Positions 6,310-63,135 of a DNA stretch of 64,000 bases are shown here, piece after piece. The translations under genes were made by a program, and so were the position numbers. The notes under the pieces are model-generated. The model was not told the origin of the DNA. It saw only the letters and a list, made by a program, of their open reading frames with translations, and did not search any database. The stretch spans positions 5,032,536 to 5,096,535 of the forward strand of contig NZ_CP083582.1 in assembly GCF_020091585.1 (NCBI RefSeq), in the 5' to 3' direction. Position 1 is the stretch's first letter; each line of letters starts with the position of its first letter. Source of the stretch: Kovacikia minuta CCNUW1. GTDB lineage: Bacteria > Cyanobacteriota > Cyanobacteriia > Leptolyngbyales > Leptolyngbyaceae.

Positions 6310-6425
6310 TTTAAAAAATAGGGAGTAGAGAGTCGGGAAGAATTTTGAATTTTGAATTTCCTTCTGGCTCGTGGCTCCTGGCTCCTGACTCCTAGCCCCT
6401 AGCTCCTAGCTCCTATATCCTTTCA
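6310..6425. repeat. heptanucleotide repeat patch
   Basis: Tandem seven-base units with drift are visible: GAATTTT units, then GGCTCCT, AGCCCCT and AGCTCCT. It lies between two minus-strand genes, with no coding character. Confidence 0.65.
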
Positions 6426-7112: not shown

Positions 7113-8690
7113 GTGGAATTGCAAAGCCCAAAAGTTGTTGTGATTGGGGCGGGCTGGGCTGGGTTAGGAGCAACCTATCACCTAGCCAAACAGGGATATG
7201 ATGTCACGCTTTTAGAGGCGGGTTCCTACCCCGGTGGGCTGGTGGCTGGTTGGAAAACGGCTCAGGGGAGATCGGTAGAAGCGGGAATTCATGGGTTCTG
7301 GTATCCGTATCGCAATATCTTCTCGCTCATCAATGAATTGGGAATCAATCCTTTTACAACCTGGACCCGTTCTTCTCAATATTCTCCCGCCGGATTAGAA
7401 GTAGAGTCACCGATTTTCCAGGATTTACCCCGTCTTCCGACTCCACTTGGCACCTTTCTTTATCCCCAGTTTCAGCGGTTGCCCTTGAGCGATCGCCTTT
7501 CCGCTCTGCCCTTGCTCTCGGCGCTGGTGGATTTTGATAACTCCGATGATGCCTGGCAGCGCTATGACCCGGTGACTGCCCGTGAACTGTTCAAAACCTT
7601 TGGTGTTTCCGCCCGCCTTTACCGTGACTCCTTTGAACCAATGTTGCTCGTTGGTTTGTTTGCTCCTGGTGAACAATGTTCCGCTGCGGCTGCTTTAGGA
7701 ATGCTCTACTTCTTTATCCTGGCGCACCAGTCTGATTTTGATGTGGTCTGGTGCCGAGGCACTGTGGGTGAGCAAATCTTTCGCCCCTGGATCGATCGCA
7801 TTCAGCAGGCTGGGGGGAAAGTGCTGACCAATCGGCGGGTGACGGATCTAATTTTGGGGAACCAGGAGTCAGCAGTCAGCAGTCAGGAGGCAATTCAACA
7901 TTCAAAATCCAACATTCAAAATTCTCCCCCCGCCCACCTCCCCATTACTGGTGTTGTCTGTGGCGATGAAGTTTTCGATGCAGATGCCGTGATTTTTGCT
8001 GTGGGTGTCACAGGAATGCAGAAAATTGTCAGCAACAGCCTGACACTTCAAAGTCGGCGGGAGTTTCGGGAGGTCATGAATCTAGGGGCGATCGATGTGC
8101 TGGCAACACGGCTATGGTTTGATCGTAAAATTTCCATCCCACGCCCTTCCAATGCATGCTTTGGTTTTGATGCCACCACAGGTTGGACGTTTTTTGACTT
8201 GAATGCCTTGCACGATGAATACCTGAACGAACCTGGGAGTGTGGTTGAGGTAGATTTTTACCATGCTAATCAGTTTTTGCCTCTGGATGACGAAACAATT
8301 GGGGCGATCGCCCACCGTTATCTGGCAACCTGTGTTCCTGCTTTCCAAACCGCCACTGTAATTGACCGTAGCGTGATTCGCCTGCCCAAAGCTGTGACTC
8401 ACTTTGCCCCTGGCAGTTACCGCTCCCTGTTGCCTGCTGTCACAAGTTTTGAAAATGTATTTATGAGTGGCGATTGGGTCATTACCCGCCACGGTTCCTG
8501 GTCCCAGGAGAAAGCCTACGTCACAGGTCTAGAAGCGGCAAACCTGATCATCGATCGCTTTCAATTTGGCACCAAAGCGACCATTATCCCCATAGAACCC
8601 GACGAACCGCATATTCAAATCGCCCGATCGCTAACCCGTTGGGTGCGCGGTTGGGGCAAAGCGCTTTTGCCTGACTTCTGGCTACCGTAA
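7113..8690 (+). CDS. FAD-dependent oxidoreductase, carotenoid desaturase-like
   Basis: The 525-residue protein opens with the dinucleotide-binding motif VVVIGAGWAGLGATYHLA and an acidic end of the second strand (LLEAGSYPGG), as in phytoene/zeta-carotene desaturases and related amine oxidases. It ends with the FAD-contacting block FMSGDWVITRHGSWSQEKAY. The exact substrate is unclear. The GTG start at 7113 follows an AAAGGGG site; an ATG at 7108 is out of frame. Residues about 249-277 (7858-7945) are an insertion encoded by heptamer-type repeat DNA, rich in Ser, Gln, Asn and His, probably a surface loop. Confidence 0.8.
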   Translation: MELQSPKVVVIGAGWAGLGATYHLAKQGYDVTLLEAGSYPGGLVAGWKTAQGRSVEAGIHGFWYPYRNIFSLINELGINPFTTWTRSSQYSPAGLEVESPIFQDLPRLPTPLGTFLYPQFQRLPLSDRLSALPLLSALVDFDNSDDAWQRYDPVTARELFKTFGVSARLYRDSFEPMLLVGLFAPGEQCSAAAALGMLYFFILAHQSDFDVVWCRGTVGEQIFRPWIDRIQQAGGKVLTNRRVTDLILGNQESAVSSQEAIQHSKSNIQNSPPAHLPITGVVCGDEVFDADAVIFAVGVTGMQKIVSNSLTLQSRREFREVMNLGAIDVLATRLWFDRKISIPRPSNACFGFDATTGWTFFDLNALHDEYLNEPGSVVEVDFYHANQFLPLDDETIGAIAHRYLATCVPAFQTATVIDRSVIRLPKAVTHFAPGSYRSLLPAVTSFENVFMSGDWVITRHGSWSQEKAYVTGLEAANLIIDRFQFGTKATIIPIEPDEPHIQIARSLTRWVRGWGKALLPDFWLP

Positions 8691-12746: not shown

Positions 12747-12870
12747 AAGGGGTTAGGTGCAGGTGCCAGGTGTCAAGTGTCAGGTAAAGGATGAAAAAAC
12801 TTCTTACCCCTCACCTTCCCCACCTTCTCATCCCTTCATCCTTCATCCCTCATCCTTCATCCCTCATCCT
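12747..12870. repeat. heptanucleotide repeat region
   Basis: GGTGCCA/GGTGTCA-type units are followed by CCTTCAT/CCTCATC seven-base units. The array overlaps the 3' end of larC, whose last residues (RVRDEG) it encodes. Confidence 0.7.
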
Positions 12871-14498
12871 TCATCTCTCACCCGATGCCACGCTGCCAGG
12901 GCAAGGCGATGCACCTCGATCCAGGGAAGGTTATGTTGGCGGGCAATTTGGGCGCAGTCTTCGTACTCAGGCTGGACGTTCACTGGTTTGTCTGTTCCAG
13001 CCCCTGCTACTTTCACTCGAATGGTTCCGTACTCTGTTTGCACTGGCTGAAGCTGGCGCGGCAGAATCTGACGATGCTGGGTCGATCGCCGGATTCCCAA
13101 CGTTGTCGTCTCCCGAAAAATCGTTGTTTCACAGGCTGGTACAGCCTCCAGATGGCAAAGAACCGTCAGTAAAATCCCTGGTCGTGACTTTTTCATTGCG
13201 ATCGCCTGAGTAAACACGTCCAAAGCACCCACGGCAAACAATTCGTCATAGAGATAGCCAATCGCCTGGGGATTGAGGTCATCAATCTGGGTTTCGAGAA
13301 CGACGATCGTCTCTTCAAGAGAATAGGGGGTGGGGAATGGAGTTTTGAGTTCTAAGTTTTGAGTTTTGAGTTCTAAGTTTTGAGTTGAATCCAAGTGCTG
13401 AGTGCTAAGAGAATTTTGAATTTTGAATTTTGAATTTTGAATTGAAGTTAAGTGCTGAGTGCTGACTGCTGAGTGCTGAGTATTATCTTCTAGCTTCTGT
13501 CTCCTGGTTCCTGACTCCTGACTCCGACCTTCTGCCCTCTGCCCTTTGCCCTCTGCCTTCCTCTCCCCAATCCACAGACGGAGAATGTTTGGAATGGGCA
13601 GATCGATCGCCCCTGCTCCCAACCCAACCCGCAGTAACGTCATCGTTGGTGGGGGACCAAACTGCACGGCTAACGTGGTTGCGATCGCCGCTCCAGTAGG
13701 AGTCACCAGTTCACGTTCAATGCCATTGTGATAAATGGGCAGTTGGACTAGCTCAAACAACTTCAACACCGCAGGGGCGGGAACGGGTAACCGACCATGT
13801 GCTGCCCAAACCGTACCGCCCCCCGTTGGCAGGGGAGAACAGTAAATCCTTTCAACCCCCAACCAATCTAAACCCAGGCAGATTCCCACAATATCCACGA
13901 TCGCATCCACTGCCCCCACTTCATGGAAATGAACCTTTTCGGGAGGAATGCCATGTACTGCCGCCTCTGCCTCCGCCAGCCTGCGAAACACTGCCAGGCT
14001 CCAGGCTTCTGTCCGTTTGGGAAATCCTGCCTCCAGAATTAATTGCTCAATCTCCGGCAAATGGCGGGATGAACCGTGATTAGGCAAATCAGAATTTGTA
14101 TGGGGGGCATGCTGATGGGTGCCAGAGGAATGGGGATGGGGGTGGTGAGGATCAGAATGGGGATGAAAGTGTCCTTCCTGCGGATGAGCCAGACTGTCTG
14201 CTTCTGTTGCAAAATAAGCAGGGGGATCGCTCAAATGGTACGCTGTTGGGGCAATTGGTGCTGAGATTCCCTCTTGGCTTCTGGAACGGGTTGGGCTGAA
14301 TAAATCGACATGAACTTTCGTAGCCCGCTGTCCATTTCGATGGACATCCTCCGCCCACAGTTGATATTCCCCCGAAACACCCAACCGAGCCAATGCTTCA
14401 ACCAGATAATTCAGAGGCACTCCCGCATCCACGATCGCACCCAGGCACATATCACCAGCAATTCCAGTCGGACATTCAAGATAGGCAATTTTCGTCAT
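12864..14498 (-). CDS. larC: nickel pincer cofactor biosynthesis protein LarC, with a repeat-encoded insertion
   Basis: LarC (DUF111) inserts nickel into the pincer cofactor of lactate racemase and related enzymes. The N-terminus [20 protein letters not shown], the block [31 protein letters not shown] and the C-terminal half ([20 protein letters not shown]) are all typical. At 544 residues it is much longer than the usual 400 or so. Two things explain this: a His-rich stretch at about 105-145 (metal-binding in many LarC proteins), and an insertion at about 313-393 encoded by heptanucleotide repeats. No larA, larB or larE is visible here. The ATG at 14498 matches family starts. Confidence 0.9.
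13321..13560. repeat. heptanucleotide array translated inside larC
   Basis: Tandem units AGTTTTG, TTCTAAG, GAATTTT, GTGCTGA and CTGACTC run across about 240 bases in the coding frame. On the coding strand they give seven-residue repeats such as FKIQNSK, QNLELKT and TQHL/STQ blocks. A seven-base unit read in triplets repeats every 21 bases, so the peptide has a period of seven residues. Confidence 0.85.
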
Positions 14499-14738
14499 GT
14501 TGGGGATGGGGATAAAGGATGAAGGATGAAGGATGAAGGATGAAGGAGCAACCCCAATCCGAAATTCCTATTCCTATTTTCCATCCTCAACGCAACAGCA
14601 TTCTCACAATGTTCTCTCTATTGCTCCCCTCTCTTCTTCAGTCTTCACCCTCTTCCTCTCTCCGCTCACGCTCTCCCCTCCCACTGCCCACTCCTCCCAC
14701 TCTTCACCCTTTTATCCTTCATCCTTCATCCTTTCCCA
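14499..14738. repeat. heptanucleotide and pyrimidine-rich repeat region
   Basis: Tandem GGATGAA units lie at about 14516-14546, followed by a pyrimidine-rich tract and then CCTTCAT units at about 14707-14730. It separates divergent larC and the YciO-like gene. No promoter is evident in the repeat itself. Confidence 0.7.
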
Positions 14739-24823: not shown

Positions 24824-24945
24824 AAATGGGATGTGGGGAGTGGGGAGTGAGAAAATTTTGAATTTTGAATTGGGACTAGTGCTAAGTACTATTCTCCAGT
24901 ACCTACCACCTACCACCTACCACCTACCATCTGCCATCTGCGATC
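24824..24945. repeat. heptanucleotide repeat between the SLOG and SLATT genes
   Basis: GAATTTT units are followed by CTACCAC repeated about five times (24904-24930). The array lies within the presumed two-gene unit. Confidence 0.75.
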
Positions 24946-36879: not shown

Positions 36880-37406
<527 letters not shown>

Positions 37407-45051: not shown

Positions 45052-45204
45052 GGGTCAGGTGATAGGTGGTAGGTGTCAGGTGGTAGGTGGTAGGTGTCAG
45101 GTGGTAGGTGGTAGGTGGTAGGTGTCAGGTTTTATCCCTCATCCCTCATCCCTCATCCCTCATCCCCATCCCTCATCCCTCATCCCCCATTCCCCCTCTT
45201 ACCT
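45052..45204. repeat. heptanucleotide repeat region
   Basis: GGTGGTA/GGTGTCA units (45056-45128) are followed by CCTCATC units (45136-45183). The array precedes the second Uma2 gene and extends its open frame upstream artificially. Confidence 0.8.
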
Positions 45205-45783
45205 ATGAGTCAATCTGCCTCATCCAAACCCCAATTTCTCACCTTTGAAGCGTACCTTGCCTATGACGATGGCCCAGATGCCCGCTATGAACTGGTCGAT
45301 GGAGCGCTCGTTGAAATTCCGCCTGAAAGTGATGAAAATCTTGGGATTGCCAGGAAATTACTGTTAGAGCTAATCAAGCATGTTCCAGCAGAATGGGTCG
45401 CCTGGGGAACTGAAATTGAGGTTACAGGACGACGGGCGCGGTGTCGATTACCCGATTTGCTTGTTCACACAGAAGCTTCAAAAGCAGCATTGACAGGCAC
45501 CCGTCGCGCCACGATTACCCGCGATATGCCACCCCCGGCGCTGGTGATTGAGGTGGTAAGTCCAGGTCAAATGAACCGAGATCGGGACTATCGCTACAAA
45601 CACACCGAATATGCAGCACGGGAAATCATAGAGTACTGGATCGTTGACCCGGAAACCAGGCAAATCACCGTTTGCCAGTGGAACAACGGACTGTATGAGG
45701 ACACTCTGTATGGAGAGTCCGATCGAATTCAGTCAACGCTTGTGCCAAATTTCGCCCTTACCCCAGCAGAGATTTTTGCTTGA
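45205..45783 (+). CDS. Uma2-family restriction-endonuclease-fold protein, copy 2
   Basis: The 192-residue protein has the same motifs as copy 1: [32 protein letters not shown] and [20 protein letters not shown]. The 3' part (from about 45410) is almost identical in DNA to 43395-43768, including the 14 residues before the stop, while residues 45-75 differ strongly. ATG 45205 is chosen; the longer frame from 45115 translates repeat DNA. This pattern suggests duplication followed by local divergence or gene conversion. Confidence 0.87.
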   Translation: MSQSASSKPQFLTFEAYLAYDDGPDARYELVDGALVEIPPESDENLGIARKLLLELIKHVPAEWVAWGTEIEVTGRRARCRLPDLLVHTEASKAALTGTRRATITRDMPPPALVIEVVSPGQMNRDRDYRYKHTEYAAREIIEYWIVDPETRQITVCQWNNGLYEDTLYGESDRIQSTLVPNFALTPAEIFA

Positions 45784-45844: not shown

Positions 45845-45983
45845 GTTACAAACAGACTCAGCTTAATTCCTAATTCCTAACTCCTAACTCCTAACTCCTA
45901 ACTCCTAACTCCTAACTCCTAACTTCTAACTCCTAACTCCTAACTCCTAACTCCTAATTCCTAATCCCTAACTCTCTCCCCCT
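45845..45983. repeat. CTCCTAA heptanucleotide array
   Basis: About 15 tandem copies of CTCCTAA with single-base variants lie at 45867-45970, one of the cleanest arrays in the window. It ends just at the 3' end of the CHASE2-GGDEF-EAL gene. Confidence 0.9.
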
Positions 45984-48536
45984 TCACCACTCCGGATCTG
46001 CCTTCAGTAATTTTTCTGCGGCTTCCACGGTCAACGGTTTGGAGAAGAAATAGCCCTGACCATACTCGCAGCCGAGCGATCGCAGGGCTGCCAGTTGTTC
46101 AGCGGTTTCCACACCCTCTGCCACAATGTCCATCCCCAGGTTATGCCCCAGCACAATGATCGTCTGGACAATTTGGGCATCCTCACTGCCGTCTCCCATC
46201 CGGCTAACGAAGGATCGATCGACCTTAATTGTGTTGGTTGGGAACCGATGCAGGTAGCTGAGGGAAGAGTAGCCCGTGCCAAAATCATCAATGCTGAGTT
46301 GCAGGTTCAGGGACTTCAGACGTTGCAACAGGGCGATCGTTGATTCCACATCCGTCATCGCCGTAGTTTCCGTAATCTCCAGTTTTAAGCCGCGCCCATC
46401 TAAATTGGATTCCTGCAACGTTTGCTCAATTTGTTCCACCAGGTCTGATTGGGAAAACTGTCTGCCGGAAAAGTTGACACTCACAATCAAGGGGGGTTCT
46501 TTAGGGAACTGCTGCTGCCATCCTTTCAATTGATGGCAGGCGGCTTTAATAATCCACTGGCTCAGGGGAAGAATCAGGTCAGTTTCTTCTGCGATCGGAA
46601 TGAACTCCACAGGAGGCACCAACCCCCGTTGGGGATGTTGCCAGCGAACCAGTGCCTCAAACCCAGCCAGTTTTCCCGTTTTTAAGTGAACAATCGGTTG
46701 GTAATGCAACTGAAATTCCTGGCGATCGATCGCCCGTCGCAAATCGGTTTCAAGCTGCAAGCGGTTGATGACCTGAACCCGCATCCCGGTTGCAAATACT
46801 TCGTGGCGGGCTTTACCCGCTGCCTTTGCCTGATTCATTGCCGTATGGGCATCCCGTAAAATATCCTCCGCCTCATAGTCAGAATTCGCTCGTCCCAGGA
46901 CAATCCCCACACTGGCGGAGGTAAACACTTCCTGTCCACCCAACTTAAACGGTTGGGTAATCTGCTGCTGAAGCTGATCTGCCAGTTGGGTCACCTCATC
47001 CGTGTTCCAGACTTCCCGCCGCAAAACAGCAAACTCATCACCACCCACTCGTGCCAGTTGATCTCCAGAACACAGGCAAGCCTTTAAGCGCTGGGTCATT
47101 GTTACCAGCATTTGGTCGCCCAGCCGATGACCAAAGCTATCGTTAATGGCTTTAAACCCATCCAGTCCCAGGAAAAGAACGGCGATCGCAGGAACTCCCA
47201 ACGGTTCCGCATCCTTTTCTAAGGGTATAGCAGAACTTTCACGGGCATGAAGCACGCCCTGAAGCCGCTTTGTAAACAAAGCCCGGTTGGGCAACCCGGT
47301 CAGCGCATCATGAAACGTATCATAAAGGAGCCTGTAAACAATTACCCCTGCCCCAGCAACAATCAGCCCGATCGCCGCTGGGGCAAACGGCACCCAACCT
47401 GCCTTTAAAAGAATAACCAGACAGATACCGTAAAGTCCCCCGACCACCACAACCAGGGTAAAGCTCAACGATAGGGGATGTCTCAGTTGCCACGCCAAAA
47501 CCCCTCCAATCAGAGTCCATGCCCAAATCCATGCCGCTTCCCCCGGTTTTGACCAGAACCAGAATGATGGCCGTTCATCAAATACCTGGCTCAAAATCTG
47601 GCTGACCATCTGAGCGTGAACCATTACCCCTGGAGTTTTAGGGCTTTTCTCAGAGGACAGATTAAAGGGTGTTAAGAATAAATCTTTAGCACTGGGAGCC
47701 GTGGTTCCAATCAGGATGATCTTCCCACGTACCTGTTCAGGAGCAATCTTGCCCGTAAGCACCTGGGTCAGGGTCACCAACTCGGCTCCATTGCTGGCAG
47801 AGCGGTAATTCAGCAACACCTGATAGCCGCGATCGTCCAATCCCTCATATCCACCCGAATCTGCATTGAGGGGATGAAACACCGTGTCACCAATCTTCAA
47901 ATAATCGGGGGTGACCTGAAACGGAATCTTTTGTTTTGCCAGGTAGGCAAGGCTTAACCGCAAAGAGAAGGACGAAAGGGCTTCCGTTTCTGATTTTGCA
48001 TACAACAGGTTACGCCGAACCACCGCATCCGGGTCCAGCAAAATGTCGCTAAAGCCAACCCGCGCGGGAGGAACACCCGCAGGGGCAGCAACGCCATCAT
48101 TTTCACCATCGGTCAGTAGCCTGACAGCAATCACATTATTGGCTTGAAGCTGCCTTACCAACGCAGCAGAACCGGGCGGTTGGGGAACATCCCGATAGAC
48201 ATCCAGACCAATCACACTGGGCTGAAACCGTTGCAACTTTGCCAGCAACTCCGCCATTACCTGGTCTGAAATGGGCCAGCGATTCTGCATCCGAATGTCT
48301 GCTTCCGTAATTGCCACAATCAGAAGCCTGGGATCAGATCCTGCATCAGGACGCAACCGCAGCATGTGGTCAAATGCCATCAACTCTAGAGGTTGAAAAC
48401 CGCCCATGTGCCGGATTCCCAGCAGCAACCCGGCCACCAAAATGCTTGTCACAAAGGTAGGGTGTTTCAGGGTCATGGCAAGTAAGCGGCGACCGTTGTT
48501 TGCCATGCCTGCAATACTGAATTGGAAATCCGTCAT
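45984..48536 (-). CDS. CHASE2-GGDEF-EAL protein (cyclic-di-GMP turnover)
   Basis: The 850-residue protein has a CHASE2 extracellular sensor at about 45-330 after the first span, three more spans at about 335-410, GGDEF at about 425-580 (RVGGDEFAVLR intact near 500) and EAL at about 590-845 (AGFEALVRWQHP near 625, NFSGRQF, DDFGTGYSSLSY, KVDRSF, EGVETAEQL all intact). Both cyclase and phosphodiesterase sites look complete. The inhibitory RxxD site before GGDEF is absent (CSGD). Activity direction cannot be told from sequence. ATG 48536 starts the frame. Confidence 0.92.
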   Translation of the reverse strand: MTDFQFSIAGMANNGRRLLAMTLKHPTFVTSILVAGLLLGIRHMGGFQPLELMAFDHMLRLRPDAGSDPRLLIVAITEADIRMQNRWPISDQVMAELLAKLQRFQPSVIGLDVYRDVPQPPGSAALVRQLQANNVIAVRLLTDGENDGVAAPAGVPPARVGFSDILLDPDAVVRRNLLYAKSETEALSSFSLRLSLAYLAKQKIPFQVTPDYLKIGDTVFHPLNADSGGYEGLDDRGYQVLLNYRSASNGAELVTLTQVLTGKIAPEQVRGKIILIGTTAPSAKDLFLTPFNLSSEKSPKTPGVMVHAQMVSQILSQVFDERPSFWFWSKPGEAAWIWAWTLIGGVLAWQLRHPLSLSFTLVVVVGGLYGICLVILLKAGWVPFAPAAIGLIVAGAGVIVYRLLYDTFHDALTGLPNRALFTKRLQGVLHARESSAIPLEKDAEPLGVPAIAVLFLGLDGFKAINDSFGHRLGDQMLVTMTQRLKACLCSGDQLARVGGDEFAVLRREVWNTDEVTQLADQLQQQITQPFKLGGQEVFTSASVGIVLGRANSDYEAEDILRDAHTAMNQAKAAGKARHEVFATGMRVQVINRLQLETDLRRAIDRQEFQLHYQPIVHLKTGKLAGFEALVRWQHPQRGLVPPVEFIPIAEETDLILPLSQWIIKAACHQLKGWQQQFPKEPPLIVSVNFSGRQFSQSDLVEQIEQTLQESNLDGRGLKLEITETTAMTDVESTIALLQRLKSLNLQLSIDDFGTGYSSLSYLHRFPTNTIKVDRSFVSRMGDGSEDAQIVQTIIVLGHNLGMDIVAEGVETAEQLAALRSLGCEYGQGYFFSKPLTVEAAEKLLKADPEW

Positions 48537-59683: not shown

Positions 59684-59711
59684 AAAATAGTGGTAGTTCT
59701 GAAGGTTAGAC

Positions 59712-59743
59712 TGCCCTACCACCTACCACCTACCACCTACCAC
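59712..59743. repeat. CTACCAC heptanucleotide array within the cluster
   Basis: About four tandem CTACCAC units precede the ATG of the last glycosyltransferase, so they lie in the transcribed leader or in the place of its ribosome site. Confidence 0.75.
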
Positions 59744-59749
59744 GCCCTT

Positions 59750-60934
59750 ATGCGGCTCCTTTATACCCTCACAGCTTACCCCCCCTATACTGGTGGCGCG
59801 CAGCTCCATCAACACATGCTGGCGCAGCAACTTCAGCCGCAGCATACCGTTCAAGTTGTTTGCCATTGGGACTGCCATCGGACTGATTGGCTTCTAGGGA
59901 CGACGCTCAAGGCTCCTGGGGTCGATCGCGATTACACGGTAGATGGTATCCCTGTTCATCGATTGGGGTTGTCTTTACGGGAAAAAGCGCGACTGGCTCC
60001 GTTCGTACCGTTGTATTACCCGCTGATGGGTGTGGCGTTGCCACCGATCGCGCACTGTCTGGCTCAACATCTTTCTCCCTATGCAACTCAAGCCGATTTG
60101 ATTCACAACGTCCGAATCGGACGGGAGGGATTGAGCTATGCGTCGTTGCAGGTTGCTCGAACACACCAAATTCCCTTCGTTTTAACTCCAGTTCACCATC
60201 CCCGTTGGGTCGGCTGGCGTTACCGGGCATACCTGCGCCTGTATCAGTTGGCAGATGCTGTGATTGCATTGACTCAAGTCGAAAAGAAAGTTTTGATGGG
60301 TTTGGGAGTGCCAGAAGAACGAATTGCGGTTACGGGAATTGGTCCAGTATTAGCACCAACCGCTGATCCAGTCGCATTTTTGGAGCGGTATGGGCTTGAC
60401 AAAGGGCCGATCGTTCTCTTCCTGGGGCAGCATTATTCCTATAAAGGGTATCAACAATTGCTCCTGGCAACCCCGCTGGTCTGGGAAAAGCTCCCCGACG
60501 TGCAATTTGTCTTTATCGGTCCGTCCGTTGCCCAGTCTGAACAAGCATTTGCCCAAAGGAAAGATCCCCGGATTCATCGTCTGGGTGTTGTAGATTTACA
60601 AACAAAAACCGATGCCTTGGCTGCCTGTACGCTGCTGTGTGTTCCCTCCAGCCAGGAAAGCTTTGGGGGGGTCTATACGGAAGCCTGGAGTTTTGCAAAG
60701 CCTGTGATTGGCTGCAACATTCCTGCTGTGACTGAAGTTATCACCGATGGAATGGATGGTCATCTGATTGATCAGGAACCGGCTCAGATCGCCGATCGGA
60801 TTTGTCACCTGGTGCTGAACCCCGCTCAGGCAAAGGCAATGGGAGAAGCCGGACGGGATAAAGTTCAATCTCGCTACACCTGGAGGAAGCTAGCGGAATT
60901 AACCGAACAGATCTATCAAAGAGCCGCCCAGTAA
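59750..60934 (+). CDS. family 4 glycosyltransferase
   Basis: The 394-residue protein begins MRLLYTLTAYPPYTGGAQLH (GT-B acceptor-side glycine loop). It has IVLFLGQHYSYKGYQQLLLA, LLCVPSSQESFGGVYTEAWS (EX7E-type Glu pair) and FAKPVIGCNIPAVTEVITDG. It probably completes the glycan. ATG 59750 fits the family start; the upstream open frame is repeat DNA. It is the last gene of the cluster. Confidence 0.9.
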   Translation: MRLLYTLTAYPPYTGGAQLHQHMLAQQLQPQHTVQVVCHWDCHRTDWLLGTTLKAPGVDRDYTVDGIPVHRLGLSLREKARLAPFVPLYYPLMGVALPPIAHCLAQHLSPYATQADLIHNVRIGREGLSYASLQVARTHQIPFVLTPVHHPRWVGWRYRAYLRLYQLADAVIALTQVEKKVLMGLGVPEERIAVTGIGPVLAPTADPVAFLERYGLDKGPIVLFLGQHYSYKGYQQLLLATPLVWEKLPDVQFVFIGPSVAQSEQAFAQRKDPRIHRLGVVDLQTKTDALAACTLLCVPSSQESFGGVYTEAWSFAKPVIGCNIPAVTEVITDGMDGHLIDQEPAQIADRICHLVLNPAQAKAMGEAGRDKVQSRYTWRKLAELTEQIYQRAAQ

Positions 60935-62999: not shown

Positions 63000-63135
63000 A
63001 AAAAGGCAGAAGGCAGAGGGCAGAGGGCAGAAGGAAGGAGTCAGGAGTCAGGAGCTAGGGAAGATAGAATCAATCTCCAATCTTCAACCTCCAATCTTCA
63101 ATCTCTTCCCCCACTCCCCACTCCCCACCCTTTAA
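63000..63135. repeat. heptanucleotide repeat region between the chaperone and the ATPase
   Basis: AGGCAGA/GGGCAGA units are followed by GAGTCAG units, then CTCCAAT-type and CACTCCC units. The array lies within the presumed copper operon. Confidence 0.75.

Follow-up and report, generated by a model that had tools for sequence, protein, structure and literature searches.

How a conserved gene can carry some 80 codons built of seven-base repeats, a unit that is not a multiple of three, is the question raised by larC in the 64,000-nucleotide stretch of the Kovacikia minuta CCNUW1 genome analyzed here (the window; Table 1). LarC, a nickel pincer cofactor biosynthesis protein that inserts nickel, was identified by PF01969 (residues 5 to 530), TIGR00299, and NF052512 and by sequence matches to the solved LarC structures 12bi and 6bwo. 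LarC1 and LarC2 are present in a single chain, both above the NCBIfam cutoff, and LarC2 has a Foldseek match to 6bwq (E 2.5e-14). A cyanobacterial LarC, that of Synechocystis, is active in an E. coli Duet system (PMC11796402). The heptamer insert falls exactly between LarC1 and LarC2, and in the solved LarC 12bi merely a few residues separate the corresponding matched regions. In an AlphaFold2 model based on an alignment of 25 sequences, pLDDT values below 50 were confined to a His-rich loop (residues 71 to 141) and to residues 318 to 392, which are flanked by strands (305 to 312 and 396 to 406) and two well-predicted domains; residues 318 to 392 are therefore predicted to form a disordered linker. 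An intein-like explanation, named at the outset as one that would overturn the original prediction, was rejected, since the insert consists of about 80 low-complexity residues modeled as disordered, and Pfam and NCBIfam searches of LarC returned LarC families only and no splicing domain. Inverted arrays of a single family flank the gene itself, with TCATCCT downstream (12828-12880) and GGATGAA upstream (14510-14547).

The repeat character of the insert is evident from its self-identity at a shift of seven bases, which amounts to 158/239, whereas none of 5000 codon shuffles exceeded 89. On the coding strand, between 13566 and 13321, the heptads are in turn AAGGCAG AGGGCAA AGGGCAG AGGGCAG, then GAGTCAG GAGTCAG GAACCAG, then CACTCAG CAGTCAG CACTCAG, then four TTCAAAA, and finally CTCAAAA/CTTAGAA. 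The seven-base register is unbroken between 13559 and 13448, over about 16 units in a row, and slips thereafter, and unit copies change gradually along the array. In the last block (TRF period 21, 100% matches; lag-3 identity 1.0), one 21-bp triplet of units is duplicated, a step that preserves the frame. The used frame was open in merely 13/2000 composition shuffles of the 246-bp stretch, and the mosaic contains 2 and 4 stops in the remaining coding-strand frames and 5 to 9 per frame on the opposite strand. The intact frame suggests that the insert is translated.

Table 1. Features of larC and related heptanucleotide arrays in the window
Feature	Position	Strand	Basis or remark
larC, intact ORF, 544 aa	12864..14498	minus	PF01969, E 2.4e-143
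LarC1 domain, residues 145-310, stops shortly before insert	13569..14066	minus	TIGR00299, E 1.3e-64
LarC2 domain, residues 398-516, begins directly after insert	12951..13307	minus	NF052512, E 1.1e-43
Composite heptanucleotide insert, ~80 codons, residues ~315-394	~13317..13556	minus	Self-match, register, low pLDDT
AGAGGGC/AAGGCAG block, 11-residue peptide	13528..13557	minus	Heptad reading
GAGTCAG block, peptide RSQESGTR	13502..13525	minus	Heptad reading
CAGCACT/CAGCAGT block, 10-residue peptide	13451..13481	minus	Heptad reading
TTCAAAA block, 4.7 perfect copies, 11-residue peptide	13411..13443	minus	Repeat finding
CTCAAAA/CTTAGAA block, perfect 21-bp (3 x 7) higher-order repeat, 15-residue peptide	13340..13386	minus	TRF
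Intergenic composite of AGAGGGC, GAGTCAG, ACTCCCC; same families, same order	63003..63128	plus	
CAGTCAG-unit array within amine-oxidase-family ORF 7113-8690, peptide NQESAVSSQEAIQHSKSNIQNS	7863..7886	plus	Second in-gene array of the window

Since 7 is coprime to 3, a pure heptamer array reads as one and the same cyclic heptapeptide in each frame of a strand, e.g., FKIQNSK for TTCAAAA, the complement of which is closed by a stop in all three frames. With one heptapeptide per strand, it is the strand rather than the frame that sets whether an array is open, and the frame downstream is set by the total length of the insert. The seven-residue peptide period that had been derived from coprimality is thus borne out, as is the tandem-repeat origin of some 80 LarC residues. 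The used frame is indeed without stops, as had been stated, but in pure arrays this depends on strand orientation and not on the choice of frame.

Identical or related heptamers lie between genes at four sites of the window (6340-6415, 24833-24871, 36895-36972, and 63003-63128), in agreement with the claim that the larC repeats are of an intergenic kind. The highest-copy array of the window comprises about 16 TAACTCC units (45864-45974) and adjoins an 850-aa ORF (45984-48536). Both strands of a TAACTCC array contain stops. Several ORFs (1575-2126, 45115-45783, and 59690-60934) start in or beside heptamer arrays, and their predicted starts may be wrong or repeat derived.

The genome assembly (8.56 Mb in 3 contigs, rated 100% complete) was surveyed in two spaced samples of 864 kb and a fresh 800 kb (1.66 Mb together), from which all rates were taken; loci L078 to L097 were left out of the rates because they had been chosen for matching the LarC insert. 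In the 864-kb sample, runs of period 7 that are 21 bp or longer number 124 (143.5/Mb), compared with 0 to 9 runs (0 to 10/Mb) for each of the remaining periods between 2 and 13; a Markov control gave no period-7 runs. Smaller samples of the relatives G025, G013, and G022 gave 35, 20, and 0 period-7 runs per Mb, respectively. Among 188 arrays in the sample, 106 are intergenic, 45 lie in ORF interiors, and 37 at ORF edges, with about 78% of the sample being ORF; tandem 7-bp units are thus found in dispersed arrays placed mostly between genes, as in repeats of the STRR type. Counting as hosts those ORFs in which an array has at least 60 codons on both sides, 21 were found in the 864 kb and 13 in the fresh 800 kb, i.e., 34 in 1.66 Mb or 20 per Mb, from which about 175 genes genome-wide (Poisson 95% about 120 to 245) are estimated to carry internal arrays. 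The larC insert is thus one case of a genome-wide spread and not a single event. The composite peptide was found at an E value of ≤1e-7 in 4 of 388 genomes of the class, namely the present genome and three from a single further genus, and looks lineage limited, with the proviso that a low-complexity query may miss diverged forms.

Pfam families were matched, often on both sides of the array, by 18/19 non-LarC host ORFs scanned from the first sample. Hosts identified by Pfam include enzymes (Fd-GOGAT, IleRS, pantothenate kinase, proline dehydrogenase/aldehyde dehydrogenase, and Orn/Lys/Arg decarboxylase) as well as Mfd, RecG, RecJ-like, SbcC-like, PHO4, ABC, and histidine kinase proteins. Placement between domains only was considered and rejected, as about half of the hosts carry the array in an intradomain loop (IleRS, type III pantothenate kinase, HATPase, and PHO4). 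The largest number of arrays in any host seen, twelve, occurs in a 1563-aa ORF with WD-repeat-like sequence between them (L093:2866-7557, minus strand), and a hydantoinase A/B fusion ORF (L080:1816-6225, minus strand) has nine arrays in four places, one of which reads as a long TPHTPHP run.

Orthologous sites were compared in genomes of genera other than that of the host; among these, neither a pre-insertion allele nor a recent change in copy number was seen, and no empty orthologous site was similar enough in DNA sequence to mark the insertion boundaries. IleRS, which is single in the genome (next best match, 29% identity), carries LQSSEFSVLSSQLEDNSKLKTQNSK (L063:14110-17016) at a position where the loop of ten relatives is just a few residues long; the enzyme of relative G003 (L213) has VGRGQEAEGRRQEATPLTPYSSL, made of other heptamers, at the equivalent loop. 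Judging from these sequences, the loop is a recurrent permissive site that holds different heptamer inserts in two genera. In Fd-GOGAT, the insert separates GATase_2 from the central domain and occupies a loop whose length varies among relatives. The alignment of LarC with that of relatives, which had been suggested as a check, showed a shorter or different segment: the linker measures 24 aa in most Nostocales and 20 to 100 aa overall, and several lineages have filled it with heptamers of their own, e.g., GIGNWELGIGNWEL in a Symploca MAG and SGQRSAVSGQQLAVSGQRSAV in genome G032. Rather than a fresh one-off insertion, this is indicative of a recurrent site with turnover. The view that larC directly displays intergenic repeats colonizing a gene holds in that arrays of intergenic type lie in frame and form a new low-complexity segment, but the insertion and its direction are what we infer and not what is directly seen.

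With respect to selection, 36/43 genic arrays are fully open on the coding strand versus 57/115 intergenic arrays on the strand of the nearest gene (p 1e-4), a difference that is partly forced because stop-bearing arrays would break the ORF and escape detection. Genic arrays are also more hydrophilic than intergenic ones (p 7e-5), and for arrays without stops on either strand, the coding strand gave the more hydrophilic peptide in 13/17 cases (p 0.05), which hints weakly at selection acting on the peptide. Lag-3 identity, which corresponds to frame-preserving steps of three units, was best in 4/23 genic versus 2/39 intergenic arrays, albeit with few cases. Overall, the larC insert is very probably an STRR-like heptanucleotide composite that occupies a permissive interdomain linker and is translated as a disordered, hydrophilic, tolerated spacer. 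It most likely takes no part in nickel insertion and would be tolerated without having a function.

The blocks of such composites are often chained in a preferred order. In genes, they tend to appear on the coding strand in the order AGAGGGC, GAGTCAG/GAGCCAG, GACACGG, CAGCACT/CAGTCCT, TTCAAAA/CTCAAAA, and ACACCCC/ACTCCCC. This order was recorded before the intergenic clusters were examined; the scoring in three groups was fixed afterwards, and the fresh sample was scored unchanged. Adjacent pairs followed the order in 25/31 cases in genes and in 9/15 in the fresh sample (chance 1/4), and between genes in 10/16 and 9/20 (chance 1/4; p 0.002 and 0.04). The preference is real and looser outside genes, with exceptions both in genes and between them.

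We tentatively suggest, at less than even confidence, that the ordered composite (purine-rich, then TTCAAAA/CTCAAAA, then C-rich) may itself be a DNA element that disperses by some copying process within one cyanobacterial family and has rebuilt loops and linkers of an estimated 120 to 240 proteins, and that the frame independence of a period of seven would make it tolerable in genes. The main explanation, in which the larC insert is a tolerated spacer, goes less far. Here known heptanucleotide repeats probably invade permissive loops repeatedly, arrays being copied or generated at many sites, between as well as inside genes, and those inside are kept if the strand is open, so that a hydrophilic linker is read, the total length is a multiple of three, and the site is a surface loop or linker. 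The exact landing place is immaterial to the peptide of a pure array and affects only the downstream frame, and slippage, i.e., the local gain and loss of units, would then remodel the arrays.

Slippage is well accepted as a way in which such arrays arise, and it might be the only process at work, so that each array expanded locally from a chance sequence within a linker that was already of low complexity, with no dispersal between loci. The gradual drift of unit copies along the larC array fits this explanation, as does the small number of exact multi-block matches between loci (32 shared 22-mers, pure period 7 excluded). However, identical units turn up at many loci that are not linked (ACACCCC in 23/188 arrays, AAAATTC in 12/188), and the order of blocks on one strand is biased in genes and, to a lesser degree, in intergenic DNA. 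Since independent growth is expected to give neither recurring units nor a preferred order, we regard slippage without dispersal as unlikely.

A function of the insert, which might tune linker length or solubility or act as a slippage switch that shifts the frame between LarC1 and LarC2, is improbable. Its position precisely at the domain junction would suit such a role, and a change by one unit would lead to a stop within 9 or 39 codons past the insert, but the inserted sequence is not conserved between genera, identical repeats occur in unrelated genes, and a switch would equally hit essential genes such as that of IleRS, where it would be harmful. Tandem repeats are prone to misassembly, but an assembly or annotation artefact can be practically dismissed, because chimeras would be needed in dozens of arrays with open frames across conserved genes of a complete three-contig assembly and again at the matching LarC and IleRS sites of independently sequenced relatives.

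The heptamer insert of LarC and its counterparts have several known analogues. Rickettsia palindromic elements, palindromes of about 100 to 150 bp, occur as in-frame repeats in many unrelated protein-coding genes, to which they add peptide segments; in-frame gene insertion is the common trait, whereas these elements are palindromes and not heptamer arrays, and no homology is claimed. The STRR heptanucleotides of Calothrix, Nostoc, and Anabaena are alike in their seven-base unit, their several families, and their dispersed few-copy arrays in mostly intergenic positions. The likeness concerns unit length and distribution, whereas many of the present arrays are located within conserved genes and joined into ordered composites. 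Three heptanucleotide repeats have been described in Calothrix PCC 7601, together with an over-representation in Nostoc (Rehm 2015, PMC4692102). The same study reported G-rich GGGNATC heptamers in Xanthomonas and Nostoc that are of the quadruplex type, prefer about four units, and are over-represented in noncoding DNA (Rehm 2015); they are likewise heptamer arrays, but the in-gene arrays found here are mostly of other units. The strand logic was previously laid out for one heptamer found in a few ORFs, the TAACTGA repeat of Beggiatoaceae and cyanobacteria, which has stops in all frames of one strand and reads LSVISYQ on the other; 11 ORFs carry the reverse repeats, mostly at protein ends (MacGregor 2015, PMC4679880). 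The frame logic is shared, but the single unit of that system contrasts with the many units, protein interiors, and estimated 120 to 240 genes of the present one. No ordered in-gene heptamer composites were found in a search of mainly open-access literature. Heptamer repeats themselves are known, and what seems to be new here is the scale, the interior placement in essential genes, and the ordered composites.

Our observations suggest how units of seven bases, which do not divide into whole codons, can persist within genes: whichever frame of a given strand is read, the peptide is the same. A single genome provides dozens of natural cases in which repeats of a noncoding type have turned into protein segments, essential enzymes included. 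It thereby becomes directly testable how low-complexity linkers originate and how tolerant protein loops are.
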